Shown here in pieces: positions 20,669-32,775 of a DNA stretch of 64,000 bases. The position numbers and the translations under genes were made by a program. How positions within the stretch are numbered: the stretch's first letter is position 1; the number at the start of each line of letters is the position of its first letter. Where the stretch lies: contig NZ_AP014510.1 in the NCBI RefSeq assembly GCF_000828675.1, forward strand, positions 887,413 through 951,412, given 5' to 3'. The notes beneath the pieces were generated by a model. That model had not been told where the DNA came from, did not search any database, and saw only the letters and a program-made list of their open reading frames with translations. Origin of the DNA: Thermotoga profunda AZM34c06 (lineage in GTDB: Bacteria > Thermotogota > Thermotogae > Thermotogales > DSM-5069).

Positions 20669-21694
20669 ATGAAGGGTACAGGCAGACTTACAGTGATCTT
20701 CTTGGTGGCTCTATGTGTTCTTACAACTGCATTGTTCGCAGCTCCGAAATATGTCTTGAGGTTCAACCACGTTCTTGCTCCTACCGAACCATACCATGAA
20801 GGATTTCTCAAATGGGCAAAGGCTGTTGAAGAAAGAACAAACGGTGAACTGAAAATTGAAGTTTATCACAGCGCACAACTTGGTGTTGAAGAAGACATAC
20901 TCGAACAAATCAGAGCTGGTGCCAATATCGGTCAGAATACAGATTCGGCAAGAATGGGAATGTACGTTCCACCTATCGCAGTCATGAATGCACCGTATTT
21001 TGTTAATTACCTTGGTGCAACTACACCAGAACAAGCTCTGGACGCTCTCACAAAACTTAAACAGACTCCGACAATGCAAAAATGGTTGAAAGAACTGGAA
21101 GAAAAGTATGGGTTCAAAGTGGTTTCTTACATGTGGATTCAGGGTTACAGACATTTCTTCACCAACAAACCGATTAGAAAACCCGAGGATCTAAAAGGAT
21201 TGAGAATTAGAACACCCGGGACTCCTATTTGGCAAGAATCTGTTCGTGCACTTGGTGCACAACCTGTAGCCATGAACTTTGGAGAGATTTACACGGGTAT
21301 TCAAACCAAAGCCGTCGATGGTGCAGAATTAGTGTACGCAAATATATACGGTGGAAAACTCTACGAAGTTCTCAAATACGGTTCTGAAACTGGCCACATT
21401 CTTTTAATCAACTTTGAAGTTGTCAGTGCAAAGTGGTTTAACAGTTTGCCACCGGAATATCAGAAAATACTGGTAGAAGAATGTGATAAAGCCGGTATTG
21501 AAACCTCTTTGAAGATCATGAAGGAATTGAATGAAAAATTCAAACAGGAAGTAGTGAATAAGGGTATGCAAATCATCACAGATGTCGACATCGATGCATT
21601 CATGAAGGCTGGAGAAAAGGCTTATGAAGTTCTCAAGCTTGTCGAAGCCAGAAACCAGCTCGTTCAAGAACTAAAAGCACTGGAAGGGAAATGA
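20669..21694 (+). CDS. TRAP transporter solute-binding protein, DctP family
   Basis: Periplasmic receptor of 341 aa for an organic acid. Residues 1-24 are a signal peptide ending in LFAAPKY. The mature protein has the DctP pattern: LRFNHVLAPTEPYHEGFLKWAKAVEERTNGELKIEV near its start (described in part), the ligand-carboxylate arginine region GLRIRTPGTPIW (about 175-190) and NFGEIYTGIQTKAVDGAE. The arginine in this region normally pairs with the ligand's carboxylate. The neighbouring SDR, hydroxyacid dehydrogenase and FGGY kinase argue for a sugar acid rather than a C4-dicarboxylate (inference). The ATG follows AGGGGGTGAACCC. Confidence 0.93.
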   Translation: MKGTGRLTVIFLVALCVLTTALFAAPKYVLRFNHVLAPTEPYHEGFLKWAKAVEERTNGELKIEVYHSAQLGVEEDILEQIRAGANIGQNTDSARMGMYVPPIAVMNAPYFVNYLGATTPEQALDALTKLKQTPTMQKWLKELEEKYGFKVVSYMWIQGYRHFFTNKPIRKPEDLKGLRIRTPGTPIWQESVRALGAQPVAMNFGEIYTGIQTKAVDGAELVYANIYGGKLYEVLKYGSETGHILLINFEVVSAKWFNSLPPEYQKILVEECDKAGIETSLKIMKELNEKFKQEVVNKGMQIITDVDIDAFMKAGEKAYEVLKLVEARNQLVQELKALEGK

Positions 21695-21714
21695 CAACTC
21701 TTTGTTCTTCCTAT

Positions 21715-21742
21715 GCCCAACTCCACATGGAGTTGGGCTTTT
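21715..21742 (+). terminator. Stem-loop with T tract between binding-protein and small-permease genes
   Basis: GCCCAACTCC, loop ACAT, GGAGTTGGGC forms a perfect ten-pair stem followed by TTTT. It stands 20 bases after the binding-protein stop and 28 before the DctQ start. It is probably a partial terminator or mRNA 3'-end stabiliser that keeps binding protein in excess over the permeases (inference). Confidence 0.8.
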
Positions 21743-21769
21743 GATCTGTCTTTTGCAGAGGTGATATGG

Positions 21770-22264
21770 ATGAAGAAACTCGACCAGTATCTTCTTGCAT
21801 TTGAGAAGACAGCCGCGAAGATTTTAATAATTGTGATGATAGTTTTTATTTTTATGTCTGGTATTGCGAGATTCTTGAAACATCCAATGAATTGGGCAGT
21901 TGATATGAGTACTTTTATGTTTGCATGGGCGTGCTTTTTTGCAGTTGATGTAGCATGGAGAAACAACAGAATGATGTCAGTCGATCTTTTGGTAAAACGG
22001 CTTTCACCAAGAGCACAGAAGATAATCAGATTGATTAATTATTTTATAATATCTGCTTTCCTGGTTTATTTGATAATCTGGGGATTTCGATTGACCTACA
22101 CAACCAGGTTCAGAACATTTGCAGGTATACCTAATTTCAGTTATTCATGGGTAAACGTGAGTGTGCCAATAGGTGCAATTCTCACGCTTAGAACCACGAT
22201 AATCAAGATAATAACTGAGCTACGAAAGACACCCAAGAAGGTACAAACAGAGGGGGCAGAATGA
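21770..22264 (+). CDS. TRAP transporter small permease, DctQ family
   Basis: Membrane subunit of about 164 aa with four hydrophobic segments, e.g. ILIIVMIVFIFMSGIARF and STFMFAWACFFAVDVAW. The conserved WAVDMSTFMFAW and RNNRMMSVDLLVKRL segments are DctQ signatures. An open frame runs 19 codons upstream through the stem-loop, but the ATG at 21770, six bases after AGAGGTG, starts the family's usual N terminus. It overlaps nothing and the DctM gene begins one base after its stop. Confidence 0.92.
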   Translation: MKKLDQYLLAFEKTAAKILIIVMIVFIFMSGIARFLKHPMNWAVDMSTFMFAWACFFAVDVAWRNNRMMSVDLLVKRLSPRAQKIIRLINYFIISAFLVYLIIWGFRLTYTTRFRTFAGIPNFSYSWVNVSVPIGAILTLRTTIIKIITELRKTPKKVQTEGAE

Positions 22265-22265
22265 G

Positions 22266-23549
22266 ATGACTCTTGTTATAATCGTTTTCGCCATCTTTCT
22301 CTTAATGGGTATGCCTGTGGCTTTTGCTATAGGTATATCTGGATTCGTGTGGTTTTTGCAAAATCCATCTCTTCCCATAACCATACCCATACAGGTTAGT
22401 TTGTCGCAGGTACTCAATTTCACGTTGATTGCAATACCACTCTTTATTTTGGCTGGTAATGTGATGAATTATGGAGGCGTGACCAGCAGATTGATGAATT
22501 TTGCGGCATCTTTGACTGGTCACATGAGGGGTGGTCTTGCTCAAGTCTCAGCGGTTTTGTCAACGCTCATGGGTGGTGTTTCTGGCTCGAGTATTGCAGA
22601 TGCGGCTATGGAGACACGAATGCTTGGGCCAGAGATGCTTAAAAGGGGTTATCCAAAAGGTTATGCGGTGGCAGTGAATGTCTGGACTTCATTGATAACA
22701 CCGATAATACCGCCTGGGATTGCATTCATTATATATGGGACTATTGGACAGGTTTCAATAGGAAGATTGTTTGCAGCAGGCATAATTCCAGGACTTTTGT
22801 TGATGGTTGCATACATGTTTGCGATATGGCTTTCAGCAAAAAGCATGGGTTTACAACCAGAAAGGGAAAAGCGAGCTCCTGCGAGTGAAGTTATCAGAGC
22901 TTTGGGTAGGAGTATCTGGGCTGTCATATTTCCTATACTCCTTTTGTTGGGACTCAGAACAGGTATCTTCACACCGTCTGAGGTTGGATCATTCGCAGTA
23001 GTTTACGGATTGATAGTCGGTATGATCATCTACAGAGAATTAGATGTAAAAACATTTTTCAAGCATACACTCGACGACTCGATTAATGACGTTGGCAGTG
23101 TCATGTACATAATAGCCATGTCACAGATCTTTGGTTATGGTATGGTGTGGGAAAAAACACCAGAAAAGTTGGCAAGTTTCTTGTTGAATATCAGTACCAA
23201 TCCATATTTATTAATGACGGTGATAGTTTTGTTTTTGATTTTTGCAGGTTTGTTCATAGATGCGACGGCATTAATTTTGATGTTGACTTCGGTTCTGCTT
23301 CCTGTTGCAAGAAAAGTTGGATTGGATCCCGTACACTTTGGCTTGGTTTTTATACTCGCCGCGGCTATGGGAAATCAAACTCCACCAGTTGGCGCATCGA
23401 TGTACGCAGGTTGTTCAGTTCTTGGTGCTTCCGTAGAAGAGTACACGAAGGCATCATTGCCATTTTTCATTGCAACTGTTGCCGTTATATTTGTTGTAAT
23501 GCTTTTCCCACAATTAGTGTTGTTGCTACCGAATTTATTGTTTAGATAA
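22266..23549 (+). CDS. TRAP transporter large permease, DctM family
   Basis: Membrane subunit of 427 aa with about 12 segments that carries the sodium- or proton-coupled translocation path. Typical motifs are FAIGISGFVWFL, IPLFILAGNVMNYGGVTSRL near residue 60, MGGVSGSSIADAA near 100, and TPIIPPGIAFIIYG near 145. The C-terminal GNQTPPVGASMYAG is also characteristic. It is the third gene of a complete DctPQM set. Confidence 0.95.
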   Translation: MTLVIIVFAIFLLMGMPVAFAIGISGFVWFLQNPSLPITIPIQVSLSQVLNFTLIAIPLFILAGNVMNYGGVTSRLMNFAASLTGHMRGGLAQVSAVLSTLMGGVSGSSIADAAMETRMLGPEMLKRGYPKGYAVAVNVWTSLITPIIPPGIAFIIYGTIGQVSIGRLFAAGIIPGLLLMVAYMFAIWLSAKSMGLQPEREKRAPASEVIRALGRSIWAVIFPILLLLGLRTGIFTPSEVGSFAVVYGLIVGMIIYRELDVKTFFKHTLDDSINDVGSVMYIIAMSQIFGYGMVWEKTPEKLASFLLNISTNPYLLMTVIVLFLIFAGLFIDATALILMLTSVLLPVARKVGLDPVHFGLVFILAAAMGNQTPPVGASMYAGCSVLGASVEEYTKASLPFFIATVAVIFVVMLFPQLVLLLPNLLFR

Positions 23550-23564
23550 AGGAGGTTAGAAAAG

Positions 23565-24320
23565 ATGAATTTCTCTGGGAAAGTAGTCTTGATAACAGGT
23601 GCTGGTTCTGGCATAGGTCGCAAAGCTGCGGTGATGTTTGCTGAAAGAGGCGCAAAAGTAGCAGTCAATGATATATCAGAGCAGAGAGGTAATGAAACTG
23701 TTGAGATGATTAAAAAAATAAGTGGCACAGCCATTTTTGTTGGTGGAGATGTTGCAAAAGATGCGGAAAGAATAGTGAAAGAAACTGTGGAAATATTTGG
23801 AAAGATAGATATACTGGTGAATAATGCCGGTATAGTTCCATACGGCAATATCGAAGAAACTTCTGAAGAAGATTTTGCAAAAACCATAGAGATAAATGTG
23901 AAAGGACCTTTCTTACTTTCAAAATACGCTGTTCAAGAGATGAAGAAACAAGGTTCGGGTGTTATAGTCAATATCGCTTCTGAAGCTGGACAGGTCGGTA
24001 TCCCAAGAAGATGTGTATACAGTGTCTCAAAAGCCGCACTTTTGGGTTTGACAAGGTCTTTAGCCGTTGATTATGTGGATTGCGGAATTAGGGTTAATGC
24101 AATTTGTCCAGGAACAACATACTCTCAAGGATTAGCAGAAAGAGTTAAAGCATCGCCAAATCCAGAAGAAACCATGAGAAAAATGGTTTCAAGAATACCC
24201 ATGAAACGACTTGGAAAAGAGGAAGAGATTGCCTTTGCGATACTGTTTGCGTCTTGCGATGAAGCGTCTTTTATGACTGGTAGTGTGATCAACATCGATG
24301 GGGGATCGACGATGGTTTAA
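23565..24320 (+). CDS. SDR family oxidoreductase (gluconate 5-dehydrogenase-like candidate)
   Basis: A 251-aa classical short-chain dehydrogenase. Cofactor motif TGAGSGIG (11-18), NNAG (86-89), catalytic Ser139, Tyr152 and Lys156 (YSVSK) are all present. Asp36 in the VNDIS segment after beta2 favours NAD(H). It starts 15 bases after DctM behind AGGAGG. Context with a TRAP importer and FGGY kinase suggests reduction or oxidation of a sugar acid, such as 5-ketogluconate to gluconate (inference). Sequence alone does not separate this from many other SDR substrates. Confidence 0.85.
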   Translation: MNFSGKVVLITGAGSGIGRKAAVMFAERGAKVAVNDISEQRGNETVEMIKKISGTAIFVGGDVAKDAERIVKETVEIFGKIDILVNNAGIVPYGNIEETSEEDFAKTIEINVKGPFLLSKYAVQEMKKQGSGVIVNIASEAGQVGIPRRCVYSVSKAALLGLTRSLAVDYVDCGIRVNAICPGTTYSQGLAERVKASPNPEETMRKMVSRIPMKRLGKEEEIAFAILFASCDEASFMTGSVINIDGGSTMV

Positions 24321-24409
24321 TTTCATATTATGAAAATTGTCATAGAACAATGCATACTCGTGAGATAGAATTTTCATCAAAGTAGTGGATATCATTAGGA
24401 GGTGTTTTT

Positions 24410-25252
24410 GTGGATATACTACAAGTTCTGAGAGATGCTTATGATTCACTAACAGATGCCGAAAAGAGAATAGCCGATGTGATTTTAAAAGATCCAAGGG
24501 GCGTGCTTGAATGTTCAATAAGCGATCTGAGCAGACTTGCAAATGTAAAAAGCGAAGCCTCTGTGGTTAAATTCTACAGGAAGTTGAATCTGAGTAGTTT
24601 TCAACAATTCAAAGTATTACTCGCTCAAGATCTTTCTAAAGCACCGATGGAAATTGTCTATGAAGATGTCTCAGAAGAGGATGATTCAAGAACAATTACT
24701 CAAAAAATCTTCAAAGCAACGGTTAAAGCGATACTGGATACACTTGATAGTTTAGATGTTGAATCTATCGAAAAGGCAACTGTTCTATTCAAAAACGCCC
24801 AAAGGATACTCTTTTTCGGTTTTGCGGCATCTGCGGCCGTTGCATTCGATGCCTTTCACAAATTCACCAGAATAGGGAAAAATTGTTTGTTTTCCAATGA
24901 TGAGCACATTATGGCTACTGTTCTTGCAAATTGTACTCGCAACGATTTATTAGTGGCAGTTTCTCATTCAGGAGAAACAAAATCAATGGTTGCGCTTGCA
25001 AAAAAGGCTATGGAACTGAGCGTACCAGTTGTTACTATAACAGGCAACAGAAAATCGAGTTTGGCAAAGGTCTCGACAATTGTTCTTTCCACGAACACCA
25101 GAGAAACTCGAATCAGAACAGATGCGATGACATCTCGAATTGTTCAGTTGGTGATCTTAGATACGATTTACACTATGCTTGCCGCGCGAGATGCAAAAGC
25201 TATAGAGAGTTTGAATAAGAGTCGTCTTGCAGTCTCAGAATTGAAATACTGA
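24410..25252 (+). CDS. RpiR/MurR family transcriptional regulator
   Basis: A 280-aa regulator. The N-terminal helix-turn-helix of the RpiR type (about 1-77; LTDAEKRIADVILKDPRGV, then SDLSRLANVKSEASVVKFYRKL in part) precedes a SIS sugar-phosphate-binding domain (about 120-255) with RILFFGFAASAAVAFD, LVAVSHSGETKSM and VVTITGNRKSSLAKVS. It is expected to sense a phosphorylated sugar made by this pathway and act on the operon's promoter. The start is GTG 24410 after TAGGAGGTG. The 89-base gap before it has no clear promoter. Confidence 0.9.
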   Translation: MDILQVLRDAYDSLTDAEKRIADVILKDPRGVLECSISDLSRLANVKSEASVVKFYRKLNLSSFQQFKVLLAQDLSKAPMEIVYEDVSEEDDSRTITQKIFKATVKAILDTLDSLDVESIEKATVLFKNAQRILFFGFAASAAVAFDAFHKFTRIGKNCLFSNDEHIMATVLANCTRNDLLVAVSHSGETKSMVALAKKAMELSVPVVTITGNRKSSLAKVSTIVLSTNTRETRIRTDAMTSRIVQLVILDTIYTMLAARDAKAIESLNKSRLAVSELKY

Positions 25253-25276
25253 TTCTCGTTTTCAGGAGGGGATCAT

Positions 25277-26251
25277 GTGAAGACCGTACTTATAGTTACG
25301 CGAACCTTTGGTAAGTATTCATCTGAACCGATTGATTTGCTGAAAAACAATGGATTTGATTTGCGGTGGAGTGATTCTTTAGATCCAGATATCTTGAAAA
25401 ATGTAGACGCAATCATTTTGGGGACTGGCAAACTCAGCGGTGATATAATCCAAAATTCTTCTTTGAAGATCATAGCTCGAAATGGTGTGGGTGTGGATAA
25501 TGTCGATCTAAAAACGGCCACACAGATGGGAATACCAGTAACAATTACCGTGAATGCAAATACAATTTCGGTTGCCGAACTTACTATGGGACTGATTTTT
25601 GTTTTGTCAAGAAAGATAGTCGCTGTCCACAACGAGTTGTATGAGAGGAAAAGATTTTCGTCATCAATTGGTGTAGAGCTTTTTGGAAAAATTCTTGGAA
25701 TAATAGGTTTTGGTGCTATAGGTAAAGAAACAGCAAAAAGAGCACTCTGTCTTGGAATGAAGGTCTTAGCCTATGATCCATTCGTTGATAAACAAACGAT
25801 GGCGCAATATTCAGTTGAATGTGTTGACATGGAAACTCTTTTGAAAACAAGTGATTTTGTTTCCCTACATTTGCCTTTGAATCAATCTACAAGGAAATTA
25901 ATCGGTAAAAAAGAGTTTGAAATGATGAAAAAAACTGCCTTTTTGATAAACACATCACGTGGTGGCATAGTCGATGAAGTAGCGTTGGTCGAAGCATTGA
26001 GGCAAAATCAGATCGCTGGAGCGGCGCTCGATGCCTTTGAAATAGAGCCCTTGCCTGAAGATTCTGTGTTGTACAACTGTCCTAATTTAATTCTAACGCC
26101 TCATATCGGTGCACATACCTATGAAGCCATCTACAAAATGAATATGATGGCAGCCCAATCTGTCGTCGATTTCTTCAATAAAAAATTACCTAAGCACATC
26201 GCCAATGGTGAGGTTGCTGAGAAACTTTTGAAGCAGGGTTTTTCACAATAA
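25277..26251 (+). CDS. D-isomer 2-hydroxyacid dehydrogenase (SerA/2-ketogluconate reductase-like)
   Basis: NAD(P)-dependent dehydrogenase of 324 aa. The catalytic domain is split around a Rossmann domain with GFGAIG (144-149). Active-site residues are in NTSRGGIVDE (Arg, about 233) and LTPHIGAHTYE (His, about 282), with the Glu between them in DAFEIEPLP. The early motif ARNGVGVDNVDL is phosphoglycerate dehydrogenase-like, but no ACT domain follows, so biosynthetic SerA is unlikely. In this operon it could reduce a 2-keto sugar acid (inference). The GTG start follows CAGGAGGGGATCAT. Confidence 0.86.
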   Translation: MKTVLIVTRTFGKYSSEPIDLLKNNGFDLRWSDSLDPDILKNVDAIILGTGKLSGDIIQNSSLKIIARNGVGVDNVDLKTATQMGIPVTITVNANTISVAELTMGLIFVLSRKIVAVHNELYERKRFSSSIGVELFGKILGIIGFGAIGKETAKRALCLGMKVLAYDPFVDKQTMAQYSVECVDMETLLKTSDFVSLHLPLNQSTRKLIGKKEFEMMKKTAFLINTSRGGIVDEVALVEALRQNQIAGAALDAFEIEPLPEDSVLYNCPNLILTPHIGAHTYEAIYKMNMMAAQSVVDFFNKKLPKHIANGEVAEKLLKQGFSQ

Positions 26252-26269
26252 TGGAGGTGTTTTTTTGTC

Positions 26270-27712
26270 ATGGGAGTATATGTTGGTGTTGACTTAGGTA
26301 CAACTGCCGTCAAAGTGATTGTGTACAACCCTCTTACTAAGGAAATAGAAATGGACATCGGTAAAGCCTATCAACCTTTTTCCACAGGACCAGGAATGTT
26401 CGAGCAAAATCCTTCAGATATAGAGGATGCAGTTTTTGATGCTCTAAAGCAAGTAGCACAATCATTTAAAAATATCGATGCGATTGTTTTGGATTCTGCA
26501 TTGCATACTTTGTTGCTACTTGATAAAGACTTAGAACCAATCGGTAATATTGTTCCCTGGTTGGACGAAAGATCTGTAGAACAAGTAAGAAAGATATCAA
26601 ATAACCAGGAGCTTGCAAATCATTTGCACAGGAAAACTGGTTGCCCTCCAGATACAGTCTATCCATTTTACAAAATTCTCTGGCTTTATGAAAATGATGG
26701 TGAAAAACTCGAACAGACTTTCAAAATAGTCTCTCAGAAAGACTACATTGTTTACAAATTGGCAGGCGAGTTAGTCAGTGATATTTCCGTTGCGTCTGGA
26801 AGTGGCTGTCTTGATATACACAAAAAACAATGGTGCTATGACGAATTGAAAGACCTTGCAAAACTTGAGAGAGAAAAATTTCCACAACTTGTTTCGGTGA
26901 GAGAGATTTTGAGATTACAAAAACCTGCAGCAGACAGATCCGGTTTGAAGGAAGGAATTCCTGTAATTGTGAGCCTTTCGGACGCGGCCGCTTCAAGTAT
27001 AGGTGCAGGTGCAGGTGTCGAAGATTCTTTGACGCTTTCTGTTGGGAGCAGTGCTGCAATTAGAACTATTGTCAAACAGCCGCCAAAAGAATATCCAGCT
27101 CCCGGTATTTGGTGTTATATACTCGATGAGAATCACTACATAACAGGTGCAGCTATTAAAAATGGCGGTTATGTTTTTGATTGGTATATAAAACTTCTCT
27201 CAAAGTACGACCATACTGCAGCTGTGAAAAACGTTGAAAAGATACTATACGAACTTGATTTAGAAAATTCGGTTCTTTTCTATCCTTTCATTTTTGGAAA
27301 GAGATTTCCAAAATTCGATCCAACACCGTGTGCAAGGTTTGACAGACTAAAGAGCACTACTACGCAGGAACAGGTTGCAAAGAGTGTACTTGAAGGGATA
27401 GCTTTTAATTTAAAGCGCGCCTTCGACGTTGTGAAAACGATGCCAAAATCCCTTGAGAAAGTAGTAGCTACCGGTGGATTGACTCAAGCTGACGTTTGGA
27501 TGAAAATGGTCAGCGCCATCTTTGACCAAAAGATAATTCTTCAGAGTAGCCGACAAGGTGCAGCACTTGGTACGGTGCTCTATGTATTGAGCAATGGCGA
27601 TCTATCATCTTTAGAGCAAACAACTGAAAATATAGACGAATATAAGCCAGAACCTGTGCTAAAAGAGTATTATGCGAAATTATACCAAATATGGCTTAAT
27701 GGCATAAGATGA
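26270..27712 (+). CDS. FGGY family carbohydrate kinase, gluconokinase-like
   Basis: A 480-aa sugar kinase. The actin-like phosphate-1 motif GVDLGTTAVKVIVY (about 6-19), the VPWLDERS segment and DAAASSIGAG (about 240), plus the adenosine motif VVATGGLTQADVWMKMVS near 405, are FGGY hallmarks. The pattern around WLDERS resembles gluconokinases and xylulokinases more than glycerol kinases. It is the last gene of the TRAP operon and would trap the imported acid as a phosphate, for example 6-phosphogluconate (inference). Confidence 0.85.
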   Translation: MGVYVGVDLGTTAVKVIVYNPLTKEIEMDIGKAYQPFSTGPGMFEQNPSDIEDAVFDALKQVAQSFKNIDAIVLDSALHTLLLLDKDLEPIGNIVPWLDERSVEQVRKISNNQELANHLHRKTGCPPDTVYPFYKILWLYENDGEKLEQTFKIVSQKDYIVYKLAGELVSDISVASGSGCLDIHKKQWCYDELKDLAKLEREKFPQLVSVREILRLQKPAADRSGLKEGIPVIVSLSDAAASSIGAGAGVEDSLTLSVGSSAAIRTIVKQPPKEYPAPGIWCYILDENHYITGAAIKNGGYVFDWYIKLLSKYDHTAAVKNVEKILYELDLENSVLFYPFIFGKRFPKFDPTPCARFDRLKSTTTQEQVAKSVLEGIAFNLKRAFDVVKTMPKSLEKVVATGGLTQADVWMKMVSAIFDQKIILQSSRQGAALGTVLYVLSNGDLSSLEQTTENIDEYKPEPVLKEYYAKLYQIWLNGIR

Positions 27713-27900: not shown

Positions 27901-28431
27901 CTACTCTTTTGGTACTCTTTCAACAATAACGAGTTCTGTGTCGCCGTACCTTTTTGATTTGACTAAAGTAAATTGTTTTGGTAAAATGAATTTCTCTAAA
28001 ATCGCTTTTTCTAAAATGATGATCTTTCCAATATGATCTTTTTCAGAGATGGTGTTTAAGAGCACTTGAGTGAAACCAAGGTTATATGGTGGATCGGCAA
28101 AGACTATATCAAACGATTCTGTACATGAGCTAAGAAATCTTCTAAAATCTGCGTTCACAATCCTTATTTCTACACCGAGTTTCTTGGCATTCTCAATGGT
28201 AGTGGTAATTGCTTTTTTTGATATATCAACGGCTACGACATTAATTGCACCATGACTCATCGCCTCGAAAGAAACAATCCCACTCCCACAAAAAAGTTCT
28301 AAGAAACTCTTGTTTGAAACATCAACCATGTTGAAGATCGCTTGTCTTACGATTGAAGTTGTGTACCTTGTTCTTTTATCTGGAACTGGTTTTAATTCCC
28401 TCCCCTTAAAAATCCCACCTGTTATTTTCAT
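27901..28431 (-). CDS. rsmD: 16S rRNA (guanine966-N2)-methyltransferase RsmD
   Basis: SAM-dependent methyltransferase of about 176 aa. MKITGGIFKGRELKPV at the start and TTSIVRQAIFNMV are RsmD signatures. The SAM site is LELFCGSGIVSFEAMS (about 46-61) and the catalytic motif FADPPYNLG lies near residue 121. The open frame reaches far upstream into the transporter gene, but the ATG at 28431, behind GGAGAAGG and overlapping the transporter stop (ATGA), is correct for the family. It is the last gene of the deacetylase-kinase-glycosidase operon, probably a passenger. Confidence 0.93.
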   Translation of the reverse strand: MKITGGIFKGRELKPVPDKRTRYTTSIVRQAIFNMVDVSNKSFLELFCGSGIVSFEAMSHGAINVVAVDISKKAITTTIENAKKLGVEIRIVNADFRRFLSSCTESFDIVFADPPYNLGFTQVLLNTISEKDHIGKIIILEKAILEKFILPKQFTLVKSKRYGDTELVIVERVPKE

Positions 28432-29738
28432 ACCTTCTCCTGCATCCTGACCTTTTGCTTGATTTGTTCCAGATATTTTCCATCCAGTGGATAGTATCTT
28501 AGAACAAAAACGCCTATTAACGTGGCTATTATCGGCACGACGCTGCAAAGTATTCTGAAACCAACTAATACGGTTGGTGGTTGCGAATCAACGGACACAG
28601 TTGCGTCATAACCGCTCAAAGAGAAAACAAGTCCCATTATTATGGAATTCAAAGATATGCCAAGCCTTATCACCAATGCATTCGCACCAAAATACATACC
28701 TTCACGCCTTTTCCCTGTTTTGACCTGATCTTCGTCAACTATATCCGCAATCATTATATCGAGTATTATCAATGCACCCGCAAGACCCATAGCGAGACTT
28801 GAAGTGAGTATTATTCCTTGAACGAAATTTCTTATAAATGCGAACCCACTCAACAGTGTTGCCCAGATGATCATGGAAAGCATCATGGTCTTTTTAGCAC
28901 CAATCTTTGTTGTTATCCTTTGCCACAGTGGAATCAAAAAGAAGGCAACTATGAATATCAGAGCCATTAAGATCGTTGTCTGAGTGTCGTTGATTTTCAA
29001 AACGTACTTTGCATAAAAAGGTAAAGCCGATGTGAGTCCAGTATAAGTGAATTGTAAAAGGAACGAAGCTATTACATAGGTTAAAAAAGACTTGTTGATG
29101 AATGTAAATTTCAACGCTTCAACTATACTCAAACTTTGTTCTTGAGAATATTTGGGGTTTTCTTTTGAGCCAAGTAATGTTAGGTATAGGATAGAGCCAC
29201 CTATTGTTGCAAAGATTATTCCCATATTTCGCCAACCTATCATTGAAGCAATCATTGGTGGTGCAGCTATTCCAAGTAGCAAACCTGGTATTGCGAGGAT
29301 CTGCCTCAAAGCCGATACTTTTGCTCTCTCTTTCAATGTAGGATACATCTCAGGAAATAGTGCGGTCCAGTTCAGAATGACTATGGTGAAAAAGCTATCG
29401 AAAAGAAAGATCATTAAAAAATAGTACACCACCAAAGCCATTGGTTTTGTATTGTCAAAAGGTGGTGCCCAAAAAAGTGCAAAAACCAAAGCAAGAGGCA
29501 ATGAAAACCAAAATATATATGGTTTTCTTCTGCCCCATTTTGTTTTTGTTCTATCTGAAAGATAGCCAAACAATGGGTCGTTTATGGCATTCCAAAGTCC
29601 ATACAACATCATGACTATACTTATCAAGTGTGGTGGTGCCTTCAGAACATCTACATAATAAAAAATTGCAAAGGTCGCAACGGCGTTCGACAAAAGAGCA
29701 GAACTGAACGAACCAAGGCTGTAGACAAAATCTCTCAT
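28428..29738 (-). CDS. GPH family sugar:cation symporter (MelB-like)
   Basis: A 436-aa transporter with about 12 membrane segments. The N-terminal half has FYYVDVLKAPP, the cation-site-type region YGLWNAINDPLFGYLSDRTKTKWGRRKPY (described in part) and FWFSLPLALVFALFWAPPF, all diagnostic of the glycoside-pentoside-hexuronide family. It should import an unmodified glycoside with Na+ or H+. Downstream genes of the same operon, a GH4 phosphoglycosidase, BadF-type kinase and PIG-L deacetylase, suggest a disaccharide that is phosphorylated after entry (inference). ATG follows GGAGGGTAATC. Confidence 0.92.
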   Translation of the reverse strand: MRDFVYSLGSFSSALLSNAVATFAIFYYVDVLKAPPHLISIVMMLYGLWNAINDPLFGYLSDRTKTKWGRRKPYIFWFSLPLALVFALFWAPPFDNTKPMALVVYYFLMIFLFDSFFTIVILNWTALFPEMYPTLKERAKVSALRQILAIPGLLLGIAAPPMIASMIGWRNMGIIFATIGGSILYLTLLGSKENPKYSQEQSLSIVEALKFTFINKSFLTYVIASFLLQFTYTGLTSALPFYAKYVLKINDTQTTILMALIFIVAFFLIPLWQRITTKIGAKKTMMLSMIIWATLLSGFAFIRNFVQGIILTSSLAMGLAGALIILDIMIADIVDEDQVKTGKRREGMYFGANALVIRLGISLNSIIMGLVFSLSGYDATVSVDSQPPTVLVGFRILCSVVPIIATLIGVFVLRYYPLDGKYLEQIKQKVRMQEKV

Positions 29739-29748
29739 GATTACCCTC

Positions 29749-31002
29749 CTATCCCAGGTCTATGAAATCTCTGTTTGATTTGAGAATTTCTTCAAGTAAT
29801 TGTTGAGCATCTTCAATACCAGGTCCAAGTGGATGTAGTAACATTGCTTTAATTGCTTTTTGTTTTGATTTTTCCAGAAAGGCTTGAATTGTTAGCCTTT
29901 CATACATTTTGATGGTGTGAGTTAAACCAACTGCGAATTCATCAGCTCTGCCAAGTGTTACTGGAAAGACTCTACCTGCCTTTACAAGACAAGGAATTTC
30001 AAGCACATAGTCATCTGGAAGATTGTTCACAGCACCATTGTTCTTGGTGTTCACTATGTGCATTGTTCCTGAAGATAGTGAAAGATCTCTTATCAAGTAA
30101 GCCGCAGCCGTTGAGTACATGCTACCCCCTCTTTGGGACAATTCCAATGGAATTTGGTCTATTTTTTTGTACAGTTCGAGTAGTTTGCTTTCTATCGATA
30201 GAACTTTTTCAGCACGAATGCCTTCCTTTTTGAGTTTTTCGAGCATTGTTTTTTCAGAGAGATAGTATCTCAAATAGGCATTTGGATATAATCTCAGCGC
30301 ATCTAAAACCCATTCTGGAAATTCTTGCGAAGGGATATTGGCTAAGTGCAATTTCATGTTTTGCATCAACTTCTCTGTTATATCTTGGTCTTTCACATAA
30401 ACCTTTTCGAGAAATGTCAAATGGTTCAAGCCATAGTATTTGAGAAAAATATCTTCCATTTTGCAACCGATTATCTGTGATATCATCTTCAAAAGATTGA
30501 TGGGTATATTGCAAAGTCCAATGAATCTATCAAAACCAAGGTAATTCAAAACAAACTCAGTCACATGACCTGATGGATTGGTGAAATTGATAATCGTTGC
30601 TTTGCTGTATTTATCTACTATTTCAACATATTTTCTCACCACGGGAAAGGTTCTCAAAGCGCACGCAAAACCACCTATACCAGTTGTCTCCTGACCTATC
30701 AATCCATGAGAGAGTGGTATTCGTTCATCGTTCTGCCTTGCCAAGAGTCCACCTACGCGAAACTGAAAAATCACGTAATCTGCTCCCTGTACAGCTTCTA
30801 TTATTTCAAAGGTCTTTTTTATCTTGAACCCACCTTTGACAAGTTTTTGTGTGAACTCATAGAGAATCTGAAGTTTTTCAGATGATTTTTCTATATCATG
30901 TAGAACAACTTCATCTATGTTCACATCTTTTGATATTTCCATAAAACCTTTGATGAGTTCAGGAGTATATGTACTTCCAGCGCCGATCACAGCGATTTTC
31001 AT
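29749..31002 (-). CDS. GH4 family 6-phospho-beta-glucosidase (BglT-like)
   Basis: NAD+- and metal-dependent glycosidase of 417 aa that cleaves phosphorylated glycosides by a redox elimination mechanism. The Rossmann start MKIAVIGAGSTYTPELIKG, metal ligand Cys164 (GLCNIPIN), and His194 (GLNHLTF) are visible, plus GGSMYSTAAAYLIRDL near 290. The sequence runs nearly parallel to T. maritima BglT as I remember it, including SGHVTEF and NLPDDYVLEIPC. BglT acts on 6-phospho-beta-glucosides. Its start overlaps the kinase gene's stop. In the operon it is the hydrolysis step. Confidence 0.92.
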   Translation of the reverse strand: MKIAVIGAGSTYTPELIKGFMEISKDVNIDEVVLHDIEKSSEKLQILYEFTQKLVKGGFKIKKTFEIIEAVQGADYVIFQFRVGGLLARQNDERIPLSHGLIGQETTGIGGFACALRTFPVVRKYVEIVDKYSKATIINFTNPSGHVTEFVLNYLGFDRFIGLCNIPINLLKMISQIIGCKMEDIFLKYYGLNHLTFLEKVYVKDQDITEKLMQNMKLHLANIPSQEFPEWVLDALRLYPNAYLRYYLSEKTMLEKLKKEGIRAEKVLSIESKLLELYKKIDQIPLELSQRGGSMYSTAAAYLIRDLSLSSGTMHIVNTKNNGAVNNLPDDYVLEIPCLVKAGRVFPVTLGRADEFAVGLTHTIKMYERLTIQAFLEKSKQKAIKAMLLHPLGPGIEDAQQLLEEILKSNRDFIDLG

Positions 31003-31964
31003 TGCTCATCACTCCAATATTTAATCAATCTTGCGATGGCATTTTCATCGAATGGATGACCCGATATCTCCGCCGCAAGGAGTACCGCTCCAACTACTGG
31101 AGGATGCTTAGGAATAATTACGTTGAATTCACTTCCAAGAGCAGACTTTATCATTTTTATGAGTATTTCGTCTGCATTTTTGAAAAACCCACCTTCAAGA
31201 ACTACCTTCACAGGAAAAGTGAAATGCATTTCTCTTGTAAAAGCATCGACTATTTTAACCACTTCATCGACTATTTGAGAAAGTATTTTGAGGGCTACGT
31301 AATCAAAGAGATGGGCTGCCTCATAAAGAGTTTGTATCAGTAGGATGGCATACTCATAAATCTTTGATCTATCATGTCCCATGTATTCATAATGCATAAT
31401 ATCTTCAATTGGTTTGCCTATCTTGGTTTCAAAAATCTGTTGCATGAGTGTGTGTTCGTCTCTTTTGTCCTTTGATCGGATTATCGCTGAAGCAACCATG
31501 CCAGCTATTATGAATGAACCAAGTCTTTCACCAAAAAAACGTGAGAATCCACCTTTTCTTGAGATTGTCTTTTTATCACATGCATAGTTGATACCACCAG
31601 TACCACAACTTATCAGTATACCTACATCATCTAAGGTTCCAGATCTCAGAGCAATTCTACCGTCGTTGTCAAAACTGTATTTTTCCAAATTGAGTTTATC
31701 CAAGATAGATTTCGTGATTTTTATTTCAAAATCCATGTCAGCTCCGGCAACTCCAAAATATGAGTAAGTCAGATCGATCTTTTTCAAACCGGCTTTTGTC
31801 ATTGCTTGATTTACTGCTTGATTTATGATTTCAAACGCTTGATCCACGCCGACACCTTGGTAATTTGCACCTTTCGTTCTGAGATATGACACAACCTTTC
31901 CAGATTCGTCTGCTATTACAACATCTGTTTTGCTACCACCGATATCTACTCCCATGAAATACAT
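30999..31964 (-). CDS. BadF/BadG/BcrA/BcrD-type ATPase, N-acetylglucosamine kinase-like
   Basis: A protein of about 321 aa of the ASKHA fold. The phosphate-1 motif GVDIGGSKTDVVIAD (about 5-19 from Met4), the connect region ISCGTGGINY near residue 115, GGFSRFFGERLGS and the adenosine motif VVLEGGFFKN near 260 match the GlcNAc-kinase branch rather than the Fe-S dehydratase activators, since the activator cysteines are absent. It should phosphorylate an amino sugar or its disaccharide. The frame opens at GTG 31973, but ATG 31964 is eight bases from AGGGG and is preferred. It is flanked by a deacetylase and a GH4 enzyme. Confidence 0.85.
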   Translation of the reverse strand: MYFMGVDIGGSKTDVVIADESGKVVSYLRTKGANYQGVGVDQAFEIINQAVNQAMTKAGLKKIDLTYSYFGVAGADMDFEIKITKSILDKLNLEKYSFDNDGRIALRSGTLDDVGILISCGTGGINYACDKKTISRKGGFSRFFGERLGSFIIAGMVASAIIRSKDKRDEHTLMQQIFETKIGKPIEDIMHYEYMGHDRSKIYEYAILLIQTLYEAAHLFDYVALKILSQIVDEVVKIVDAFTREMHFTFPVKVVLEGGFFKNADEILIKMIKSALGSEFNVIIPKHPPVVGAVLLAAEISGHPFDENAIARLIKYWSDEQ

Positions 31965-31975
31965 TTCGATCACCC

Positions 31976-32719
31976 CTAAAATTTCACGGCTTCTGGCATC
32001 ACATGAAGCATTGTAGGTGGAAGAACTTTGAACGCTTCAACAAGTTTCTCGTTATATTTTGCTCTCTCAGTTAGGTAAAAAGAAAGCATTTGTAAAGATT
32101 TTTCATCAAACTGACTCCTGTGTTGTGCAATGGCAAGTAATTTCTTTTCAAGATGTCTTTGCTCGATTTCATAAAAAGTGTTCGGAAAGGCTGTGTTGAA
32201 AAAACTGATAGCCTTTACTTCATGGTCTGTTGTGCCAGGACAAACCTTGGGTAATCTATACAAACTTGTAGCTTGCGAAGCTCCCATACCTGTTTTTATG
32301 TGATCTGGATGAACTTCATAAACCAAAAATGGGTCGACGGTAAAAACGATATCAGGCTTAATCTTTCTTATGTATTCAGCCGTCTTTGTTCTGACTTGTT
32401 CAATTGTGTAATCTCCGAGATCTTCAAAATCAAGCCAAATCAACTCATGGACACCCAGGATTCGCGCAGCGTTTTGTTGCTCACTTTTTCTTATTTCGCT
32501 CAATCTCTGACCAACGATTTTCTGGTCTTGTGAACCTGCCCCACCATCCGTGACTGTTAAATAATAAACTTTAACACCTTTCTCTGAGAGTTTTGAGACT
32601 GTTGCCCCCATACTGATGTCGGCATCATCTGGATGAGGTTGAACGCACAGAATTTTCTCACACTCTTCGAAATTAGGAACCATGAAAAACTCTCTGAGCT
32701 TTTGGGATAGATCAGTCAT
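31976..32719 (-). CDS. PIG-L/LmbE family deacetylase
   Basis: Zinc-dependent N-deacetylase of about 247 aa. The metal motif QPHPDDADISMGAT (His29, Asp31, Asp32 from the chosen start) and the later VHPDHIKTGMGA, with the third histidine, identify the family, whose members remove acetyl groups from GlcNAc conjugates such as diacetylchitobiose, GlcNAc-PI and mycothiol precursors. The first gene of the operon, it sits directly before the GlcNAc-kinase-like gene. The ATG at 32719 is eight bases from AAGGAG; the ATG at 32737 lies in front of that site and is unlikely. Confidence 0.88.
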   Translation of the reverse strand: MTDLSQKLREFFMVPNFEECEKILCVQPHPDDADISMGATVSKLSEKGVKVYYLTVTDGGAGSQDQKIVGQRLSEIRKSEQQNAARILGVHELIWLDFEDLGDYTIEQVRTKTAEYIRKIKPDIVFTVDPFLVYEVHPDHIKTGMGASQATSLYRLPKVCPGTTDHEVKAISFFNTAFPNTFYEIEQRHLEKKLLAIAQHRSQFDEKSLQMLSFYLTERAKYNEKLVEAFKVLPPTMLHVMPEAVKF

Positions 32720-32744
32720 GATGTTCACTCCTTTCATAACAATA

Positions 32745-32775
32745 ATTCTACATCACAATGGTGTTTATTGTTCAA
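32745..32775 (-). promoter_or_regulatory. Candidate promoter of the deacetylase-kinase-GH4 operon
   Basis: Minus strand TTGAAC (32775-32770), 19-base spacer and TAGAAT (32750-32745), 26 bases before the ATG. The long spacer makes it a weak or regulated promoter. Confidence 0.45.

Follow-up and report, generated by a model that had tools for sequence, protein, structure and literature searches.

A putative PTS-free, chitobiose-type catabolic operon with a BadF-family kinase and a GH4 glycosidase in Thermotoga profunda

Background

How does a bacterium without a PTS obtain the phosphorylated disaccharides that some of its glycosidases require? Enzymes of family GH4 use NAD+ and a metal in a redox-elimination mechanism, and those of the BglT type need 6-phospho substrates; BglT of Thermotoga maritima was crystallised as a 6-phospho-beta-glucosidase. 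Among the 61 related genomes compared in this study, PTS enzyme I was found in just 6, none of which has a BglT-type GH4, and in 0 of the 29 that carry one. With no enzyme I in any of the Thermotogota genomes that have a BglT-type GH4, the origin of the phosphorylated substrate becomes a question.

The question is raised by an operon in the window analysed here, a stretch of 64,000 nucleotides from Thermotoga profunda AZM34c06. A sequence-only reading of this DNA proposed that the operon contains, without a PTS, an analogue for each step of the chitobiose (chb) pathway of Escherichia coli, and at the level of protein families the comparative genomics agrees with this proposal. A literature search that covered few subscription journals found no account of the combination of PIG-L, BadF, GH4 and GPH proteins, no paper naming TM1280/TM1281, and nothing relevant on a chitobiose kinase.

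Results and discussion

Organization of the operon

Five co-directional genes with hardly any gaps between them occupy positions 27901-32737 on the minus strand of the window, in the order PIG-L deacetylase, BadF kinase, GH4 glycosidase, GPH symporter and rsmD (Table 1). The first four are intact and lie where the sequence-only reading had placed them, and all four Pfam matches are far above the curated cut-offs; the end coordinate given in that reading, 32775, falls just upstream of the PIG-L gene. The likely start codons of the deacetylase and kinase genes are the ATG at 32719, with AAAGGAG ahead of it, and the ATG at 31964, respectively. The GH4 ATG overlaps the BadF stop codon, the symporter gene begins 10 nt past GH4, and rsmD, from 28431, overlaps the symporter stop codon, the operon extending in this manner into a housekeeping gene. 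Cluster c4, to which rsmD belongs, comes after the cassette in most f1 genomes. Promoter and terminator scans gave matches no more numerous than in shuffled sequence.

Table 1. Genes of the operon, with positions in the window and basis of each assignment
Gene product	Position	Strand	Basis
PIG-L (CE14) deacetylase, diacetylchitobiose-deacetylase type (predicted)	31976..32737	-	PF02585, Dac matches, catalytic residues
BadF-family sugar kinase, GH4-linked clade (putative)	30999..31973	-	PF01869; own clade apart from NagK-type
GH4 6-phospho-beta-glucosidase, T. maritima BglT ortholog (by similarity)	29749..31002	-	phmmer; 59% identity; motifs
GPH-family (MelB-like) cation symporter (putative)	28428..29738	-	PF13347; TIGR00792 below cut-off
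rsmD-like 16S rRNA methyltransferase, final operon gene	27901..28431	-	Named by eye, not by family search

Proposed pathway

We infer from the genes and their families a PTS-free, chitobiose-type catabolic route, and consider this reading of the operon reasonably probable. Its steps would be the following: 1) the GPH symporter imports a free disaccharide, for which N,N'-diacetylchitobiose or a closely similar GlcNAc-beta-disaccharide is the likeliest candidate; 2) the Dac-like PIG-L protein strips the acetyl group from the non-reducing GlcNAc; 3) the BadF kinase uses ATP to phosphorylate the 6-OH of the non-reducing residue of the disaccharide; 4) the GH4 enzyme cleaves the phosphorylated disaccharide, releasing GlcN-6-P and GlcNAc; 5) the freed GlcNAc is deacetylated or phosphorylated; and 6) GlcN-6-P is deaminated by a SIS-type deaminase encoded elsewhere in the genome. 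In the sequence-only reading phosphorylation came before deacetylation; the reverse order is probable, since archaeal Dac attacks the free non-reducing end of (GlcNAc)2 (PMC9779004). As to step 1, the GPH protein contains an MFS_2 domain (PF13347, 8.1e-73; 245.8 bits, cut-off 27) and scores 193.1 bits against TIGR00792, below the cut-off of 231.35, and we propose this MelB-type symporter as the putative importer.

The glycosidase and the source of phosphate

The GH4 protein matches PF02056 and PF11975 (1.5e-39 and 1.3e-43), and phmmer matches it to the structures 1up4, 1up6 and 1up7 (4.7e-169). Its identity to BglT of T. maritima is 59% over 415 residues, and the motifs for NAD and metal and that of the tyrosine are kept (NFTNPSG, LCN, GLNHL and the tyrosine of NxYLRYY). 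By similarity, this protein is the ortholog of BglT, and the need for a 6-phosphate on its substrate would carry over from the ortholog. The E. coli GH4 enzyme cleaves glycosides of glucosamine-6P after ChbG has acted (PMC12791066).

The complete genome (2.19 Mb) lacks PTS enzyme I (PF05524), and this lack bears out the PTS-free part of the sequence-only reading; consequently, a hidden PTS is ruled out and the phosphate for the BglT-type enzyme must have another source. The operon itself includes neither an EII gene nor a YdjC gene and is accordingly not a member of the PTS-dependent chb type.

Distribution of the genes among related genomes

The GH4 gene and a BadF gene of the GH4-linked clade are both present in 29 of the 61 related genomes, one genome has the BadF gene only, and 31 have neither; the genus-level BadF/GH4 table is 14/0/0/13. 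The two genes lie side by side by coordinates in 27 of the 29 genomes, and the two exceptions (G033 and G051) are both multi-contig assemblies. This near-invariant partner suggests a testable answer to where BglT obtains its substrate, namely from an ATP-dependent disaccharide kinase.

Of the 29 genomes with the GH4 gene, 18 also have PIG-L, compared with 4 of the 32 others (genus-level p = 0.002, uncorrected for relatedness). In seven genomes, which belong to three families and have different transporters, PIG-L lies within the BadF-GH4 gene cluster: with the GPH symporter in T. profunda itself (G000), G002 and G003; with no transporter in G006; with DeoR and a deaminase in G015; and together with ROK, BadF, GH4 and OppABCDF in G046 and G052.

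The main rival explanation is that BadF and GH4 form a general beta-glucoside module, where the kinase acts on cellobiose or other beta-glucosides at O6', the BglT-like GH4 cleaves the product, and PIG-L is loosely associated and has a separate role. Such a module would agree with the nearest characterised GH4 being the T. maritima 6-phospho-beta-glucosidase, and with seven genomes of the genus Thermotoga (which we take to be our group g5) where BadF-GH4 is present and PIG-L is absent. It would also agree with the PIG-L genes that are unlinked in several genomes, for example with an MFS gene or one for ornithine aminotransferase as neighbour, and in g3 and g12. In G001, from the same genus as T. 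profunda, PIG-L stands alone and is followed directly by rsmD (L075:1059-2527), with BadF, GH4 and GPH missing between the two and the flanks matching the window. Furthermore, ATP-dependent beta-glucoside kinases are known in another family, namely the ROK-family BglK of Klebsiella and Listeria, which acts with a phospho-beta-glucosidase; in that system, ATP-dependent phosphorylation of a disaccharide likewise feeds a phospho-glycosidase, whereas the kinase of the present operon belongs to the BadF family and is tied to GH4 and a deacetylase. The recurrence of PIG-L in the same cluster in three families despite differing transporters argues against the module, as do the deaminase in the G015 operon and the ChbG-type deacetylase and nagB that accompany GH4 and BadF in Haliovirga (see below), and we regard it as unlikely, albeit deserving serious attention.

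Because the Thermotoga-genus relatives have the kinase and GH4 but no deacetylase, the core pair is not restricted to chitobiose, which corrects the sequence-only reading on this point. This pair may be of general use for beta-glucosides, the deacetylase widening its range to include GlcNAc disaccharides. In both G029 (L053:2122-10839) and G048 (L057) the BadF-GH4 pair comes after a DegT aminotransferase gene of the same cluster, and in G029 a ROK regulator, sugar ABC genes and a Gfo/Idh oxidoreductase accompany it, a context that suggests other substrates too, such as a different amino or keto sugar.

Clusters that point to amino sugars

Two clusters support an amino-sugar route. The gene row in G015 consists of DeoR, a SIS deaminase, PIG-L, BadF and GH4, and among solved structures its SIS protein is nearest to 1j5x, the glucosamine-6-phosphate deaminase of T. 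maritima, with archaeal PH0510-type proteins next. The second cluster is from another phylum, on a plasmid of Haliovirga abyssi (Fusobacteriota; NZ_AP027060.1, 134564-150130; L119:4992-8117 and L120), where a same-strand gene run comprises GH4, a YdjC-family deacetylase, BadF, a sugar-binding protein, two ABC permeases, a chemotaxis receptor, a UgpC ATPase, nagB, a ROK protein and two GH8 genes. Its deacetylase, which has no annotation beyond "polysaccharide deacetylase family protein", matches PF04794 (3.6e-54), to which ChbG of E. coli also belongs, so that another deacetylase family occupies the slot of PIG-L, next to BadF, GH4, an ABC importer and nagB; the notion that PIG-L takes the place of ChbG gains from this exchange. 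PTS genes lie directly upstream of the Haliovirga cluster, from which it follows that the absence of a PTS is a property of the Thermotogota hosts and not of the cassette. The cross-phylum cases come from plasmid records, and a contig scan with a single GH4 sequence gave one named locus. A match to the PIG-L protein is also present, unannotated, on a Subdoligranulum plasmid (H16).

A kinase clade linked to GH4

The kinase is a member of the BadF superfamily (PF01869, 3.2e-42; 145.4 bits, cut-off 31.5). Against the NagK equivalog model it scores 59.9 bits, with a cut-off of 370, and it is a distant match to NagK SO3507; its closest named BadF members, all distant, are NagK, MurK and hexokinase. 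Its pocket motif is GGFSRFFGERLGS and not the WG..GD found in most NagK-type BadF proteins; the GH4-linked kinases have GG(F/Y/L)..GERLG in most cases and GD.LG in four. In a tree with nine further BadF proteins of these genomes, encoded in other clusters (mostly of GlcNAc type), the kinases linked to GH4 group in one clade (support 100/98) apart from the NagK-type paralogs, with the Haliovirga kinase included on a long branch. The score under the cut-off, the different motif and the separate clade rule out a plain NagK, and the term "GlcNAc-kinase-like" used in the sequence-only reading is apt only insofar as NagK is a distant relative. A structure model of the kinase from a two-row alignment has a mean pLDDT of 37.

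It could be argued that the kinase phosphorylates the monosaccharides GlcN or GlcNAc after cleavage, the substrates of GH4 being unphosphorylated or phosphorylated in some other way, and the names of the closest BadF members fit that possibility. We consider it quite improbable given the separate clade, the replacement of WG..GD by GGx..GERLG and a NagK-type BadF already present in the GlcNAc cluster of this genome; in addition, BglT-type enzymes generally need 6-phospho substrates and no PTS is available to supply them. We propose instead that the protein is a putative ATP-dependent disaccharide 6-kinase. More generally, we lean, with caution, towards the view that this new BadF clade uses ATP to phosphorylate entire beta-linked disaccharides and thereby feeds GH4 in PTS-free bacteria, and that it combines with one or other of two unrelated deacetylases (PIG-L/Dac and YdjC/ChbG) to make up a modular counterpart of chb in at least two phyla. 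If so, a function would be assigned to BadF proteins now annotated merely as ATPases, and it would be explained how bacteria without a PTS feed enzymes that require phosphorylated sugars.

The deacetylase and the identity of the disaccharide

The PIG-L protein (PF02585, 4e-31) has archaeal diacetylchitobiose deacetylases as its top four PDB matches (E 1.2e-47 to 1.9e-43) and scores 152-166 bits against the Dac chains versus at most about 50 bits against other PIG-L chains, which places it nearer to Dac than to PIG-L proteins of the BshB/MshB type. Its score against the BshB1 model is 80.6 bits (cut-off 182.5); this score, together with the far better Dac matches, rules out a bacillithiol- or mycothiol-type deacetylase. 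In Dac of P. chitonophagus the Zn triad is His40-Asp43-His151, Asp42 is catalytic, and a further catalytic residue, His259, is donated by the neighbouring subunit (PMC9779004). These residues of 8BGN (H40, D43, H151, D42 and H259) align with H35, D38, H146, D37 and H245 of the PIG-L protein, H245 being the counterpart of the His from the C-terminus of the neighbouring subunit, and all five, the Zn triad as well as the two catalytic residues, are kept in each of the 22 aligned proteins (the protein from the window and 21 Thermotogota relatives). The substitute for ChbG named in the sequence-only reading is thus Dac-like and has the full catalytic set. We propose on these grounds that it is a Dac-type CE14 deacetylase, predicted to deacetylate (GlcNAc)2 at the non-reducing end.

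The least probable of the alternatives keeps the proposed route and replaces diacetylchitobiose by another GlcNAc disaccharide, for example one that is N-acetyllactosamine-like or derived from the cell wall, in line with the lack of a GH18 chitinase in the genome, the variety of transporters among genomes and a Leu in place of W227, a hydrophobic residue of the acetyl pocket in archaeal Dac, and at odds with a Dac-type active site, subunit-crossing His included, that in archaea is tuned to (GlcNAc)2 (PMC9779004) and with the Haliovirga GH8 genes, which would fit chitosan-type oligosaccharides. Chitosanase activity is among the activities of family GH8.

For the chitobiose-type route we prefer, the absence of GH18 from the genome makes scavenging of the disaccharide more likely than growth on chitin; the chitin polymer is an improbable substrate, and growth on it is rejected. 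The NagB family (PF01182) was not found in the T. profunda genome, but a SIS deaminase with 50% identity to that of G015 is encoded away from the operon, in a GlcNAc-type cluster at about 2134-2145 kb of G000:C1. This amino-sugar cluster (L106:8272-19501, corresponding to G000:C1 2134271-2145500) contains a DeoR-like regulator, the SIS deaminase, two GHL10 proteins, a SIS_2 protein, sugar ABC genes, a 363-aa protein without a Pfam match and a NagK-type BadF, and it ends with the start (N-terminus) of a gene matching the GH20 of G002, where GH20 closes the corresponding cluster. The nagA homolog adjoins an SMC-like gene outside any sugar cluster. With the deaminase encoded elsewhere in the genome, the pathway can be completed. 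The location of the nagA homolog and the deaminase outside the operon nevertheless counts against the route we prefer, as do the lack of GH18, the Thermotoga-genus genomes without PIG-L, the unlinked PIG-L genes, and the gene contexts in G001, G029 and G048.

Comparison with known systems

With the chb operon of E. coli (the ChbBCA PTS, ChbG and the GH4 enzyme ChbF) the proposed route would share its logic, i.e., import, a 6-phosphate on the non-reducing residue, removal of one acetyl group, and GH4 cleavage to GlcN-6-P and GlcNAc. It would differ in that a symporter and an ATP-dependent kinase stand in for the PTS, the deacetylase is of the PIG-L/CE14 and not the YdjC type, and deacetylation probably comes before phosphorylation. 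Taken together with its deacetylase, the system would represent the chitobiose route assembled independently, with unrelated parts doing the job of E. coli chb. The archaeal Dac-GlmA pathway of Pyrococcus and Thermococcus has in common a Dac-type PIG-L acting on the non-reducing end and a SIS-type GlcN-6-P deaminase, there GlmD; in that pathway the GH35-like GlmA cleaves unphosphorylated GlcN-GlcNAc, whereas here the kinase and a phospho-specific GH4 would take its place. Within the same phylum, PTS-free use of chitobiose is represented by the T. maritima ChiR regulon, which comprises chiEFG, cbsA and nagAB (PMC3750489); it relies on the chitobiose hydrolase CbsA and nagAB, and the regulon as described includes no Dac, BadF or GH4.

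Other gene arrangements

In G058 (L081:3084-12628) Opp transporter genes are found with a NagK-type BadF, PIG-L, a GNAT acetyltransferase and GH20, in a cluster that lacks a BglT-type GH4. In G054 (L080:548-2659) a Dac-type PIG-L is followed immediately by a GH1 beta-glucosidase, which may offer an alternative means of cleaving deacetylated chitobiose. Finally, positions 20669-27712 of the window contain a catabolic cluster with a TRAP-type transporter, an SDR dehydrogenase, an RpiR-like regulator, a 2-hydroxyacid dehydrogenase and an FGGY-like kinase (all named by eye), and the same gene set is found just beyond rsmD in G002 (L036).
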